Assembly: GCA_021797025.1 (NCBI GenBank)
Contig: JAKAAK010000169.1
Span: 1-7,118 of the forward strand
DNA: 7,118 bases
Direction of reading: 5' to 3'
Origin: Thermoplasmata archaeon
GTDB taxonomy: Archaea > Thermoplasmatota > Thermoplasmata > Thermoplasmatales > Thermoplasmataceae
The translations under genes and the position numbers were made by a program. Shown piece after piece: positions 2,679 through 7,118 of the stretch. Every line of letters starts with the position of its first letter. The stretch's first letter is position 1. Below the pieces are notes generated by a model, which did no database searches, was not told the DNA's origin, and worked only from the letters and a program-made list of their open reading frames with translations.

Positions 2679-3422
2679 ATGAAGTCTTTATTCCCCTATG
2701 CTGGAGGGAAGATCCATTTAATAAGGCACATAGATCAGATCTACAAGAAATCAAATAAAACTGCATTTATAGATGTCTTCGGCGGGTCAGGGAAGGTTCT
2801 AATGAATATTGATTCTAGGAATAAGGTATACAACGATATAGACAATTCCCTGGTCAATATATTCGAAACCTTGAGGAATCATCCGGATATATTAAGGGGA
2901 AAATTTGAATATTCACTGAATTCCAGGAAGCTGTTCTATGAGTATAAGAATATCACAGATGACAGTGCAGAGAACGCCTTCAGGAGAGTTTATACCTATC
3001 TAATGTCGTTTGCAGGGAAGGGCAACCATTACGGCTACAGTGTCAAGTCCAGGATGAATAAGATGGCAAATGCCAGAAAGAACATAGATGATATTTACAA
3101 TGATGTGAAATACTGGACCATTGAAAATCTGGATTATAAGGATTTGATAAAGCGATATGATTCGGAAGATTCCTTCTTTTACCTGGATCCTCCATATTAC
3201 AAAATAAAATTTTACAGGCACAACTTCACAGAGAATGATTTTTATGAGTTGAAGGAGACATTGAATGATATCCATGGGAAATATCTGCTGAGCATAAATT
3301 CCAATGATTTTATCTTAAATTTATTCGGGGAGCCTGATATGAAGATAGAAATCCAGAACAATTCTATAAATAATAAGCATGTTAAGGATTCAAAGGGATA
3401 TGAGCTCCTATATTATAACTAA
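2679..3422 (+). CDS. D12-class (Dam-like) adenine-N6 DNA methyltransferase, orphan
   Basis: This enzyme transfers a methyl group from S-adenosylmethionine to adenine N6 in double-stranded DNA. The 247 residues show the D12/Dam order: motif X FPYAGGK (5-11) at the N-terminus, motif I DVFGGSGKVLMNI (32-44) for AdoMet, NDID (52-55), and catalytic motif IV FYLDPPYY (167-174) with Asp170-Pro-Pro-Tyr173. The start at 2679 puts the PYAGGK motif right at the N-terminus, as in Dam relatives. Dam-family enzymes are usually 260-290 residues, so this one is slightly short but complete. Its target cannot be read from sequence; phage-type relatives often methylate GATC or similar short sites. No endonuclease gene adjoins it on its strand, so it is best called an orphan methyltransferase, perhaps phage-derived or a guard against a restriction system. 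Confidence 0.9.
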   Translation: MKSLFPYAGGKIHLIRHIDQIYKKSNKTAFIDVFGGSGKVLMNIDSRNKVYNDIDNSLVNIFETLRNHPDILRGKFEYSLNSRKLFYEYKNITDDSAENAFRRVYTYLMSFAGKGNHYGYSVKSRMNKMANARKNIDDIYNDVKYWTIENLDYKDLIKRYDSEDSFFYLDPPYYKIKFYRHNFTENDFYELKETLNDIHGKYLLSINSNDFILNLFGEPDMKIEIQNNSINNKHVKDSKGYELLYYN

Positions 3423-3589: not shown

Positions 3590-3862
3590 TCATTCCACCA
3601 CTAAATCTCTTAAATTAATTGAGTAAGATTCTTTTAATAAATGATATAATATAGATTTATTTTTACTACAGTAATACTTCTTTACTAGACCTACATTTTC
3701 TAGAGCATCGAGTGATTTATTAACTGATTGCCTATATTTTGGAGATAGATCACCAAGTCGTTTGAATATTTCTGATGCAGACATATCTTTCTCTACCAGT
3801 AACTGAAGTATCTTCTGCCTTCTATAATTGTCAAGAATTTTAACAAAGGATTGGAGTTTCAT
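3590..3862 (-). CDS. Winged helix-turn-helix regulator (ArsR/MarR-like), probable controller of the RM locus
   Basis: The 90-residue product has a winged helix-turn-helix layout. Helix 1 is around residues 5-24 (FVKILDNYRRQKILQLL), helix 2 is MSASEIFKRL (27-36), and the recognition helix is SPKYRQSVNKSLDALENVG (40-58). The beta wing follows as LVKKYYCSKNKSILYHLL. No metal-binding Cys pair or sensing domain is seen; Cys65 is single. The gene is divergent from the EcoRV-like endonuclease, with 107 bases between the two ATGs and both TATA boxes inside that gap. Many Type II systems carry a small controller that delays endonuclease synthesis after entry into a new host, but classic C proteins are lambda-repressor-like, not winged helices. 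Control of the RM pair is therefore inferred from position. It could instead be an unrelated archaeal regulator. Confidence 0.82.
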   Translation of the reverse strand: MKLQSFVKILDNYRRQKILQLLVEKDMSASEIFKRLGDLSPKYRQSVNKSLDALENVGLVKKYYCSKNKSILYHLLKESYSINLRDLVVE

Positions 3863-3883
3863 TTAATTTGGATATGTTTTTCT

Positions 3884-3891
3884 TTATTTAA
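3884..3891 (-). promoter_or_regulatory. TATA box of the winged-helix regulator gene
   Basis: Minus-strand TTAAATAA lies 22 to 29 bases before the ATG at 3862, the spacing for a leaderless archaeal transcript. It is about 50 bases from the endonuclease TATA box on the other strand. Confidence 0.5.
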
Positions 3892-3942
3892 CTATATGTC
3901 GCCTAAACAGATTAATAATGTTCTATAATAATGACATATATA

Positions 3943-3950
3943 CTTAAATA
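3943..3950 (+). promoter_or_regulatory. TATA box of the EcoRV-like endonuclease gene
   Basis: CTTAAATA lies 20 to 27 bases before the ATG at 3970 and inside the longer open frame that begins at 3931. This fits a leaderless transcript starting at 3970 and argues against the upstream ATG. Confidence 0.5.
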
Positions 3951-3969
3951 TTTAATTATACACAAGTTT

Positions 3970-4713
3970 ATGAATTTTGGCGAAGAATTCTATAAAAAAA
4001 TAGGGAATAATAAACTAACTTGGCTGGTAAGAGGGATACTATCTACTGATGATTTGGTTTATGGTATAGGCACAGATAGTAAAATCTTGTCAAGAGTCTT
4101 TGAACTTCTTTCTTATCCATTTATCGAGGAGATAGCACAAGAACAAAATTATTACTTAGAGATATCATCTGAACAGACCGTTTATCCAGATTTCACACTC
4201 TATAAAACTAAAAAAGATAAAACTAAACTTGCAATAGATATTAAAAGTACTTATAGGAAGAAGCCGAATGCAAAGTTTGGATTTACCTTAGGTTCATATA
4301 CTTCTTTTCTAAGAAACAACACTAAAAATATAATGTATCCATATGATGAATATTCAGAACATTGGATAATAGGGTTTGTATATGATAGGGAAACTGAAAG
4401 CAGTCGGTCTACAAAAAAAGTCAATCTCAGTGAGAGGAATACATTAATGCCTTCCTATAAAAATGTTGAATTTGTTGTACAAGAAAAGTATAAGATTGCG
4501 GGATGTAAACCTGGTAGTGGAAACACTGCCAATATTGGTTCAATTTTAGGAGACTTAAATGACTTTAAACATGGTAATGGCCCATTTTCTAGCTATGGTG
4601 AGGCAACATTTAGAGATTACTGGGCCAATTACGGAAAGAACATACCACGTCCTTACTCAGATCTAGAGGGATATTTTAGATGGAAGAAGAATCAGAAAAA
4701 TAGCTTTTCGTAA
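3970..4713 (+). CDS. EcoRV-like Type II restriction endonuclease, predicted GATATC-specific
   Basis: The 247-residue product aligns with EcoRV (about 245 residues), as I recall that sequence, without gaps over most of its length. Catalytic residues fall at EcoRV's own numbers: Glu45 in SRVFELL, Asp74 in YPDFTLYK, Asp90 and Lys92 in LAIDIKSTY. The blocks FTLGSYTSFLRNNTKNI (105-121), with Thr106 and Lys119, and the recognition loop GSGNTAN (182-188) also match, except Ala187 for Thr. EcoRV cuts GATATC bluntly in the centre with Mg2+ as a dimer; the same is predicted here. The frame is open from an earlier ATG at 3931. Starting at 3970 gives the exact register with EcoRV (Gly22, Ser25, Gly34, Asp36), and the TATA box supports it. 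The 13 extra residues are probably not translated. The cognate methyltransferase starts 30 bases downstream, and a divergent regulator lies upstream. No damage is seen, so it is likely active. Confidence 0.95.
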   Translation: MNFGEEFYKKIGNNKLTWLVRGILSTDDLVYGIGTDSKILSRVFELLSYPFIEEIAQEQNYYLEISSEQTVYPDFTLYKTKKDKTKLAIDIKSTYRKKPNAKFGFTLGSYTSFLRNNTKNIMYPYDEYSEHWIIGFVYDRETESSRSTKKVNLSERNTLMPSYKNVEFVVQEKYKIAGCKPGSGNTANIGSILGDLNDFKHGNGPFSSYGEATFRDYWANYGKNIPRPYSDLEGYFRWKKNQKNSFS

Positions 4714-4714
4714 C

Positions 4715-4722
4715 TTTTAATT
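4715..4722 (+). promoter_or_regulatory. Candidate TATA box for the M.EcoRV-like gene
   Basis: TTTTAATT lies immediately after the endonuclease stop and 22 to 29 bases before the methyltransferase ATG at 4744. This would let the protective methyltransferase be made from its own leaderless transcript as well as by read-through from the endonuclease gene. Confidence 0.45.
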
Positions 4723-4743
4723 AGATCTGATATATATCATAAT

Positions 4744-5673
4744 ATGGACAATCAATCTCCTAAAATAAATCTTACAAATTTTGGATATGTAAACGGTAAC
4801 GATTCTCAATTTACGCCTTTACTAATTAGACATGTTATAGCTCCACCTATAAAATGTCAGGGTATAAAAACAAAGTCTGTCGATTTCATTGCATCAAGCA
4901 TTAAATGGAAGGGGGACGGTAGATGGGTTGAACCATTCCTGGGATCAGGGGCGGTTTTATTTAACATCGCCCCAAAAAGGGCACTTGCTTCAGATATTAA
5001 CGGGTATATTATTGATTTCTACAAAAGTATTCAAGAGCATAAGATAGATTGTAAAATGGTAAGAGATTTCCTGGAAGAGGAGGGTAAAAAACTTGAAGAT
5101 AAAGATGCGGAATTTTATTATGAGGTTAGGAATAGGTTTAACAAAAATCACGATCCACTAGACTTGCTATTCCTAAGCAGGGCATGTTTTAATGGAGTGA
5201 TGCGATTTAACGGTAAAGGGGGGTTTAATACACCATATAATCATAAACGCCAGAGATTTGCACCAGCGTATATTACAAAGATAGTAAATCAAGTTAAATT
5301 TGTTAGTCACGTAATAGAAGGGAAGGATTGGGAATTTAAAAAGGGAGATTGGAGGGAAACGTTAAAACAAATTTCTGGCGATGATTTTGTTTATGCCGAT
5401 CCTCCATATTATGGGCGCCATACAGACTATTATGGAACTTGGACGGATTATGATGATGAAGAACTTGCAAAGGTTTTAGAAAGTTTTGAAGGTGGCTTTG
5501 CTTTATCATCATGGAAAGAAAATGAATTTAGAAAAAACGAGCAACTTGATCTTCATTGGTACAAATTTAACATTAAAATGAAAAATCATTTTTATCATGT
5601 AGGTTCTGTAGAAGATTATAGACATCCTATAACAGAAGTTTTAGTTATAAAACCAGGGTTTCAGGTTGACTAA
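4744..5673 (+). CDS. M.EcoRV-like adenine-N6 DNA methyltransferase, predicted GATATC-specific
   Basis: This is the modification partner of the preceding endonuclease. Of 309 residues, those from about 33 on follow M.EcoRV (298 residues) closely as I recall it: motif X PPIKCQGIKTK (34-44); motif I WVEPFLGSGAVLFNIAPK (61-78), the AdoMet site; DFYKSIQ (91-97); SRACFNGVMRFNGKGGFN (145-162); RFAPAYITKI (171-180); catalytic YADPPYYGRH (217-226) with Asp219-Pro-Pro-Tyr222; and NHFYHVG (281-287). M.EcoRV methylates the first adenine of GATATC, so the host's own sites would be shielded. The first 30 or so residues (MDNQSPKINLTNFGYVNGND and on) have no counterpart in the short M.EcoRV N-terminus, and no in-frame Met lies nearer motif X, so the extension appears real. 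The order R then M on one strand contrasts with many divergent RM pairs. Several relatively GC-rich stretches near conserved motifs hint at horizontal origin. Confidence 0.95.
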   Translation: MDNQSPKINLTNFGYVNGNDSQFTPLLIRHVIAPPIKCQGIKTKSVDFIASSIKWKGDGRWVEPFLGSGAVLFNIAPKRALASDINGYIIDFYKSIQEHKIDCKMVRDFLEEEGKKLEDKDAEFYYEVRNRFNKNHDPLDLLFLSRACFNGVMRFNGKGGFNTPYNHKRQRFAPAYITKIVNQVKFVSHVIEGKDWEFKKGDWRETLKQISGDDFVYADPPYYGRHTDYYGTWTDYDDEELAKVLESFEGGFALSSWKENEFRKNEQLDLHWYKFNIKMKNHFYHVGSVEDYRHPITEVLVIKPGFQVD

Positions 5674-6047: not shown

Positions 6048-6662
6048 TTATATTTCATGCTTTATATCCCTTATTTCCCCTGCAGTAATTGTTATTGCCC
6101 TGGCTATATCGGATATAATAAAGGTGAAATTATCCGAATATTCCCCATCCGAAAGTAATTTTTTGAGGTGACTTATTATCTTGTTCATGGGTTTATAATC
6201 AGGGTAATTGACAGGATATCTGGTTAGATTTACTATAATCATTACCGGCACCATTGGAAATCTACCATCTGAGTGGATATCATTTTGCAATTTTTTAACA
6301 TCAGAAAACACAGAGTCTATAACCACTGGTATCTCTTCAGTTTCATTTTCATAATCATAAAGAATCTGTTTTACCTCTATAAAGAAAACTTCATAATCGT
6401 TATTACTATTAAAAATATGATCTATCTCGAAATCTACACGCTCCTTGGTACCTACATAGCGTGATTCCATTATTATGTCATTGAACGAAAAATAACCACT
6501 GGATATCATTTCATGATAAATCATAGCATTGAGATGATGTTCATGTTGTATAATACCTCCTAAGTTTTCATTGATGTTATACTCGTCATCCAACAAAATA
6601 ATCTTCTTTGTAGCTATCTCTACAGCATTCCTTATTTTTTCAATTGCCATTTTTTCTTCCAT
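6048..6662 (-). CDS. PD-(D/E)XK nuclease-like protein, uncharacterised
   Basis: The 204-residue product carries a nuclease core of the PD-(D/E)XK type. An N-terminal helix (QHEHHLNAMIYHEM, 39-52) with Glu41 is followed by KERVDFEIDHIF (74-84) with Asp77 after an Arg-Val pair, then by the strand EVFFIEVKQIL (91-101) with Glu96 and Lys98. A later helix, FSDVKKLQND (119-128), is typical of such proteins. I do not recognise the family; the likely role is DNA cleavage, probably in defence. There is no membrane segment. GGAG at 6675-6672 lies nine bases before the ATG at 6662 and acts as a credible Shine-Dalgarno sequence, unlike most genes here; Met5 is a possible alternative start. It follows the zinc-ribbon gene by 19 bases on the same strand, so the two are probably co-transcribed. 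It is visibly more AT-rich than that neighbour and is flanked by a direct repeat, both signs of later arrival. Confidence 0.75.
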   Translation of the reverse strand: MEEKMAIEKIRNAVEIATKKIILLDDEYNINENLGGIIQHEHHLNAMIYHEMISSGYFSFNDIIMESRYVGTKERVDFEIDHIFNSNNDYEVFFIEVKQILYDYENETEEIPVVIDSVFSDVKKLQNDIHSDGRFPMVPVMIIVNLTRYPVNYPDYKPMNKIISHLKKLLSDGEYSDNFTFIISDIARAITITAGEIRDIKHEI

Positions 6663-6681: not shown

Positions 6682-6707
6682 TCATTCCAGCTTCGCCCCG
6701 CAATTAT
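6682..6707 (-). repeat. Proximal copy of the 26-base direct repeat, at the 3' end of the zinc-ribbon gene
   Basis: This copy forms the last codons and stop of the intact zinc-ribbon gene. Its partner lies at 6014-6039, exactly beyond the nuclease gene, so the interval of 668 bases is the unit bracketed by the repeat. Confidence 0.75.
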
Positions 6708-7118
6708 CGCAATAATGAGCTCTCTCACGGTTCTCAGCGCCACATACTGGGCATATTTTCACCTTTCCCTTATACTGTGTCATCATCTTCTGCACCTGCG
6801 GGTATGTCCAGGCTTCCCGTACATGCCAGCATTCATAGGAATCGTCCTGCTCGCACCATAATCTGAAGATTCCGTTGCCGTTTTGCTTCACGTATATATT
6901 GAATATCCTTGACCGTTTGCCAGGTACAGCTTCCTCAACGGTTATGTGGTTGTCGAGCACATTGAAATGAAATAAAAATTTAAGATACTTGGAATTCTCC
7001 CGCTCCTCAGGGGTTAGTGCTACATTGATTTCTTCCCCATCAATGTGGATAACACCCTCGGCTTCCTGGTCTATGGGCGCTTCGGACACTTCCTCAAGCT
7101 CAACCAACTTTTCAGCAA
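6682..7118 (-). CDS. C-terminal zinc-ribbon protein, 5' part beyond the window
   Basis: The frame is open to the right edge and upstream codons (Ala-Glu-Lys-Leu) continue without a stop. The true start is outside; a TTG at 7107 is possible but not convincing. About 145 residues are visible. An acidic stretch (VELEEVSEAPIDQEAEGV) comes first, then a mixed alpha/beta region (KYLKFLFHFNVLDNHITVEE, IFNIYVKQNGNGIFRLWC). A C-terminal zinc ribbon follows, with Cys pairs CPVC and CDNC separated by ten residues, ending GAKLE. Such treble-clef ribbons bind one zinc and are common in archaeal proteins of many roles. The central region is not one I can assign, so no function is given. The gene is clearly richer in G+C than the rest of the window, suggesting resident chromosomal DNA next to an acquired island. 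The nuclease gene follows it directly. Confidence 0.8.
   Translation of the reverse strand, partial: AEKLVELEEVSEAPIDQEAEGVIHIDGEEINVALTPEERENSKYLKFLFHFNVLDNHITVEEAVPGKRSRIFNIYVKQNGNGIFRLWCEQDDSYECWHVREAWTYPQVQKMMTQYKGKVKICPVCGAENRERAHYCDNCGAKLE

Follow-up and report, generated by a model that had tools for sequence, protein, structure and literature searches.

Restriction–modification (R-M) enzymes of the EcoRV type are of a well-known kind, and the point of interest is their control, by which the toxic endonuclease is delayed until the methyltransferase has worked. In the classical EcoRV system, the gene for the controller (C) protein lies just upstream of the endonuclease gene on the same strand and the methyltransferase gene is divergent (PMC5333194); C proteins are described as helix-turn-helix activators or repressors (PMC3874152), and those described so far in the texts accessible to us act on bacterial promoters. 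Here, we analyse a 7,118-nt contig (GenBank JAKAAK010000169.1, hereafter the window), which carries an EcoRV-like endonuclease gene (R), an adenine methyltransferase gene (M) and a small winged-helix gene divergent from R. We put at about 0.6 the probability that these genes form a complete EcoRV-family type IIP R-M system in a probable Thermoplasmatales archaeon, with the winged-helix protein replacing the HTH_3 (Xre-like) C protein. An archaeal host would need a controller compatible with archaeal transcription, and the locus offers a concrete controller candidate with a 107-base intergenic region, as well as a homologue of EcoRV whose source is probably acidophilic.

Several loci bear comparison with the window. 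The EcoRV locus of pLG13 from Escherichia coli (NC_005019) shares with it the R and M families, the active site, the recognition loop and a small DNA-binding gene beside R. In pLG13, however, M is divergent and the small gene, whose product is an HTH_3 protein in our scan, lies upstream on the R strand, whereas in the window R and M stand in tandem and the divergent small gene encodes a winged-helix protein. The pair on pEF60063-2 of Geobacillus stearothermophilus (CP128456), with an M 57% and an R 49% identical to those of the window, differs in its bacterial origin, its divergent M and the HTH_3 gene before R. By comparison, plasmid pairs of Rhodothermus marinus and Antarctobacter carry R and then M in tandem, like the window, but are bacterial and have R proteins only about 36–37% identical. 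A Micrarchaeota contig (JAHJAQ010000086, locus L015) holds an R of the window clade, 60% identical over 171 residues, and also encodes a TATA-binding protein (TBP), a carbamoyltransferase and an amino-acid kinase; its R is truncated at the contig end and its divergent neighbour is the TBP gene. Gene 181 of halovirus HGTV-1 is annotated as an EcoRV-like endonuclease in a haloarchaeal virus, but its product is 28% identical, sits on a very long branch and keeps neither Q69 nor N185, and the 5.5 kb examined there hold no EcoRV-type M. Haloarchaeal viruses are described as having restriction endonucleases and methylases (PMC8651126, PMC3950731); the word EcoRV is absent from the main texts of both papers.

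As to control, the word 'winged' is absent from the accessible text of the C-protein review PMC3874152 and of PMC3850674, and the winged-helix mentions in that of a 2025 review (PMC12707154) concern modification-dependent endonucleases, not controllers. Winged-helix regulators are described in other bacterial defence systems, namely WYL proteins such as BrxR (PMC9122589, PMC9122601, PMC9122588). In the titles and opening parts of abstracts that our literature search covered, we found neither an account of an archaeal type II R-M system with a winged-helix controller, subscription papers lying mostly outside that search, nor one of a Thermoplasmatales EcoRV system, REBASE lying outside it.

An EcoRV-family endonuclease and its methyltransferase

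The R protein is an EcoRV-family endonuclease, far beyond chance, and its reading frame is intact (Table 1). A Pfam scan matched residues 12–223 to PF09233 with 205.8 bits (cut-off 25, E = 9.6e-61), EcoRV chains in the PDB were matched at E of about 2e-61, and 107 of 242 aligned residues are identical to pLG13 EcoRV. The active-site residues D74, D90 and K92 (PD...D-x-K) are the same as in EcoRV, as are E45 and Q69, and the R-loop 182–186 (G-S-G-N-T) is retained together with N188; the changes include N70T, T93S and T187A. The structure predicted without templates (predicted local distance difference test, pLDDT, 86.4) superposes on EcoRV 1b96 with template-modelling (TM) scores of 0.86/0.87. 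Although an alternative start extends the open reading frame upstream to 3931, most aligned relatives begin at the residue matching the ATG at 3970, so the longer frame is probably unused.

Table 1. Features of the R-M locus and their positions in the window
Feature	Position	Strand	Size	Basis
Winged-helix (ArsR-like) protein, divergent from R; proposed controller	3590..3862	-	90 amino acids	Weak matches, model
Divergent intergenic region; possible operator/promoter	3863..3969	.	107 bases	Imperfect inverted repeat 3885–3897 / 3938–3950
R, EcoRV-family type II restriction endonuclease	3970..4713	+	247 amino acids	PF09233, PDB, model, active site
R-M spacer with short palindrome TGATATATATCA at 4728–4739; possible M promoter	4714..4743	+	30 nt	By eye
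M, EcoRV-type N6-adenine DNA methyltransferase (Dam/D12 family)	4744..5673	+	309 amino acids	PF02086, PDLC03264

Across an alignment of 139 R proteins, window included, D74 and K92 occur in all 139, D90 and Q69 in 138, T186 in 137 and N185 in 132, and the window R has the majority residue at each of these positions. At position 70, most of the family has T (121 of 139), and the N of EcoRV is a minority residue (17). These counts bear on the possibility that the pair is EcoRV-like but has shifted in specificity away from GATATC, or that R is decaying. The changes N70T, T93S and T187A, the lack of GATATC avoidance and the terminal branch of the window R, at 0.44 compared with 0.14–0.21 in the four nearest rows of the tree, would fit such a history. 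By comparison, T70 is what the family usually has, residues 182–186 and 188, the frame and the catalytic residues are intact, and the R cluster at 90% identity is found on 21 contigs. We regard a shifted or decaying enzyme as improbable.

As expected of an EcoRV-type R-M system, a Dam-family adenine methyltransferase gene adjoins R. The M protein matches PF02086 (E = 8.1e-39), the Dam family TIGR00571 (170.6 bits) and the PADLOC MTase_II model PDLC03264 (371 bits), and it contains both the DPPY motif and an EPFLGSG stretch. It is 57% identical to the M beside the EcoRV-like R on the Geobacillus plasmid and 45–46% identical to the M of EcoRV plasmids. The 14 best matches of M include every one of the 12 plasmid records that R matched; the remaining two, Kovacikia (an unannotated record) and Allochromatium, have no R match. 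The R-M spacer also holds another overlapping palindrome, listed by the repeat search. The first-pass annotation had placed an EcoRV-type R-M pair with EcoRV-like key residues at 3590–5673. The profile scores, the 107 of 242 identical residues and the shared motifs bear out the pair and its residues, D74, D90, K92 and loop 182–186 being identical; the interval itself fits R and M on the forward strand, but also takes in a third gene (3590–3862), on the reverse strand, that the reason given there left unmentioned.

A second Dam-like adenine methyltransferase gene lies at 2679–3422 on the forward strand (PF02086, phrog_56). It has no evident nuclease partner and is possibly an orphan.

Recognition sequence

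M.EcoRV places its methyl group on the first A of GATATC. The window R retains the EcoRV-type recognition loop (residues 182–186, which we take to be the base-reading loop), and GATATC is therefore our best guess for its site. In the system that we propose, R would most likely cut GATATC and M would methylate the first adenine of GATATC in host DNA. Nine GATATC sites occur in the window. Dinucleotide shuffles predict 3.2, with nine reached in 1 of 200, and a maximal-order Markov model predicts 6.5; site avoidance was dropped as evidence of specificity, GATATC being if anything in excess. GATATC is absent from the main text of a survey of 230 methylomes that included 13 archaea (PMC4752239).

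A winged-helix gene linked to R

The classical EcoRV layout, with an HTH_3 C gene just upstream of R on the same strand, is not found in the window, and the pLG13 C protein has no match there. Instead, a winged-helix gene lies on the opposite strand. Its product gives weak ArsR-, TrmB-, FUR- and Csa3-type matches that stay below the curated cut-offs where these are given, among them PF01022 (18.6 bits, cut-off 22) and NF033788 (23.7 bits, cut-off 55). The predicted model is nearest to ArsR-type structures (2oqg, E 1.9e-4; CzrA, TM at most 0.79), with MarR-type structures lower down. The protein may share the fold of ArsR/SmtB-type repressors and matches them weakly in sequence, but differs from them in scoring below the family cut-offs and in its linkage to R-M genes.

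A search by shared short words through 5.8 billion proteins returned four relatives of the winged-helix protein, P0241, P0242, P0243 and P0244, with identities of 97%, 82%, 81% and 79%, respectively. The longest contigs of P0242, P0243 and P0244 measure 7419, 6816 and 3738 bases, which are exactly the values of the R relatives P0002, P0003 and P0005. In a control list of 120 zinc-ribbon-family proteins, by comparison, two share any longest-contig value with the R list; from this, the chance that at least three of four winged-helix relatives match is about 2e-5, if the matches are independent. The winged-helix and R genes thus very probably share contigs in three further lineages. Between the window and these three relatives, the winged-helix protein is somewhat more conserved than R (70–73 of 90 residues, 78–81%, compared with 69–72%), and the predicted recognition helix, residues 41–55, is identical in all five winged-helix proteins. 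The gene appears to be a component dedicated to this R lineage. Across the 94 other R loci that we collected, a profile of the winged-helix protein found no relative, the next best hit (E 0.22) being an HTH_3 protein.

Several observations weigh against replacement of the C protein by this winged-helix protein. The linkage is read from matched longest-contig values, not from gene order or distance, and the partner was found for three of the six R relatives P0002–P0007 only; P0004 (contig at most 3478 bases), P0006 (1865) and P0007 (4124) gave none. The longest contig of P0241, at 9476 bases, is absent from the R list, in which the window's own R cluster of 21 contigs is represented by its longest, 10083 bases. 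The Micrarchaeota genome of L015, of unstated completeness and with its contig cut inside R, gave no winged-helix match at E ≤ 1. Distant kin would have been missed by the search of 5.8 billion proteins, which depends on short words in common. In addition, the winged-helix model has a modest pLDDT of 69, the inverted repeat described below is of a size that 6 of 200 shuffles reached, and no GATATC avoidance is visible in the window, although the last point neither supports nor excludes GATATC specificity.

Some of these observations would be expected if the EcoRV-type pair is functional and the winged-helix gene is a co-carried island neighbour that regulates neither R nor M. Winged-helix genes are common in archaea, the candidate operator is left unproven by the shuffles, and both the Micrarchaeota genome and the three R relatives without a partner would be as such an account predicts. 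By comparison, the database search returned just four relatives, three of them sharing longest-contig values with R proteins 69–72% identical to that of the window, and retention and conservation beside R in several lineages would not be expected of a passenger. We consider a mere passenger unlikely, though it is an alternative to be taken seriously.

Intergenic region and proposed control

The inverted repeat in the divergent intergenic region has arms of 13 nt with one mismatch and overlies both TATA positions; TATATGTC at 3893–3900 and GACATATA at 3933–3940 are further elements of the region. We treat the repeat as a candidate operator and a weak lead. TATA-like 8-mers lie at –28 of the winged-helix gene (score 7/8), –27 of R (8/8) and –28 of M (7/8). 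Archaeal TATA boxes with leaderless starts had been proposed for these genes from the first reading of the DNA. Shuffled AT-rich intergenic DNA, however, scored at least 7 in 3875 of 5000 cases and 8 in 988 of 5000, no worse than the real sequence, and TATA boxes were dropped as evidence of archaeal promoters. The Shine-Dalgarno-like matches at the three starts reach at most 3/6 to GGTGAT, which is no more than consistent with leaderless starts.

If the winged-helix protein is a controller, it would stand in for the HTH_3 (Xre-like) C protein of classical EcoRV. It would bind the shared promoter region of its own gene and R, and may limit the transcription of both. M would have a promoter of its own and be produced early after arrival in a host, and R might be held back until the genome is protected. 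A bolder version, which we find plausible but somewhat short of even odds, is that, in an archaeal EcoRV lineage, a dedicated ArsR-type controller acting on divergent leaderless archaeal promoters took over from the bacterial HTH_3 C protein. Were this so, the controller would have been rebuilt for transcription driven by TBP and transcription factor B (TFB), and the same timing problem, to methylate first and cut later, would have been solved in another way.

Phylogeny and spread of R

R relatives numbered 1444 at E ≤ 0.001 among 1600 scored, of which the best 120 were listed. Our 139-row tree was built from P0002–P0060 among these 120 and from 79 of the 94 loci. It omits five short R reads (L070–L074) and, from a set of 13 nearly identical viral loci, 10; a 43-row tree is a hand-picked subset. 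The window R falls in a clade of 10 rows with P0002–P0009 and the Micrarchaeota contig L015. The clade has a bootstrap of 100 and a Shimodaira–Hasegawa-like approximate likelihood-ratio test (SH-aLRT) value of 98 in the 43-row tree, and an SH-aLRT value of 98 in the 139-row tree. Named bacterial rows fall outside it, and two of its members stand in archaeal or archaeal-looking DNA. The first-pass annotation knew EcoRV-type systems from bacteria and suggested a transfer between domains. The annotated HGTV-1 relative and the Micrarchaeota contig relative speak against a purely bacterial range, and the R phylogeny leaves the direction and age of any transfer unsettled, since the clade has at least one other member in archaeal DNA and the root of the tree is arbitrary. 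Among 196 relatives of genome G002, and likewise among 87 genomes belonging to the phylum of genome G001, a single genome had a member of the R family, in both cases the starting genome itself.

A second Micrarchaeota contig with an R-M pair (L021, JAHKLX010000076) was considered as another archaeal case and set aside as likely misbinned, because its R branches within Clostridia and the bacterial-looking proteins encoded beside it include a Peptidase_S24/LexA-like and a LuxR/sigma-like one. Its genome, G002, encodes a TBP, and the pair may have come by a recent transfer.

Gene order varies across the 94 loci, some of which are near-identical contigs. R and M converge (R> <M) in 33, follow one another as M>R> in 15, diverge (<M R>) in seven and stand as R>M> in two, while in 37 loci no M exceeds 200 bits against that of the window. 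The tandem R>M> order of the window is rare, not unique. A small helix-turn-helix gene just upstream of R, counted if shorter than 420 bases, on the R strand and ending within 200 bases of the R start, occurs in 22 of 94 loci, and all three that were scanned are HTH_3; a hidden Markov model of the C protein, run for three rounds, did not converge and drifted into larger methyltransferases.

A larger protein on the opposite strand stands beside R, with no M.EcoRV-type M, in L058 (6756–7859), L060 (2219–3319), L004, L005, L011, L013 and L063–L069. Scans of two of these proteins, those of L058 and L060, identified them as distant D12-class methyltransferases; R enzymes of this family may therefore pair with partners of more than one type.

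Host and flanking DNA

The locus probably sits in DNA of a Thermoplasmatales (Ferroplasma-like) archaeon. The product of the incomplete zinc-ribbon-family gene at the window's end (6682–7116) matches a protein named Ferroplasma sp. at 94% identity over 144 residues, Ferroplasma being a genus of Thermoplasmatota, Thermoplasmatales; other relatives are up to 97% identical, and the archaeal assignment rests on this one named relative. The flank looks archaeal, Thermoplasmatales-like and acidophile-like, in agreement with the earlier reading of it as archaeal-style.

An artefact of binning or assembly, in which bacterial R-M DNA was fused to archaeal DNA, would account for the G+C content at third codon positions (GC3) of the winged-helix, R and M genes, at 0.22–0.26, as compared with 0.41–0.53 in the recombinase gene, the gene at 1565, the Dam-like gene and the zinc-ribbon gene. 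Two further genes of the window, however, are similarly low (0.28 at 170–670 and 0.30 at 6048–6662), AGA/AGG make up most Arg codons in eight of nine window genes, among them R and M (in the zinc-ribbon gene they are 3/7), and the occurrence of the R cluster on 21 contigs also argues against a fusion, which we judge very improbable.

A viral or plasmid element was also considered and rejected. The window had no megablast match among 72,556 plasmid records, and R, the recombinase and the winged-helix protein had no viral-contig relatives in searches with single sequences or narrow patterns; the Dam-like gene had one weak match, at 27%. A family-alignment search found 19 viral contigs with R relatives, which are at most 46% identical. 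Scans of the window for tRNA genes and, at gathering thresholds, for Rfam families found none.

Genomic islands of Ferroplasma (PMC12350378) and of Cuniculiplasma (PMC5155288) are described as holding R-M genes, and type II R-M genes are reported in C. divulgatum PM4 and in the Iron Mountain E-plasma (PMC10354927); the main texts of the three papers do not contain the word EcoRV.

Among the remaining genes of the window, the reverse-strand protein at 6048–6662 has a sub-threshold match to NERD (nuclease-related) and no PDB relative, and the small forward-strand protein at 170–670, without a Pfam match, shows by eye a possible PD-(D/E)XK-like pattern (GIDILAY...ITIQTKS). A 205-residue tyrosine recombinase, whose match to XerA/XerD-type models is confined to their C-terminal part, is encoded at 844–1461 on the forward strand and may mark an integrated island.

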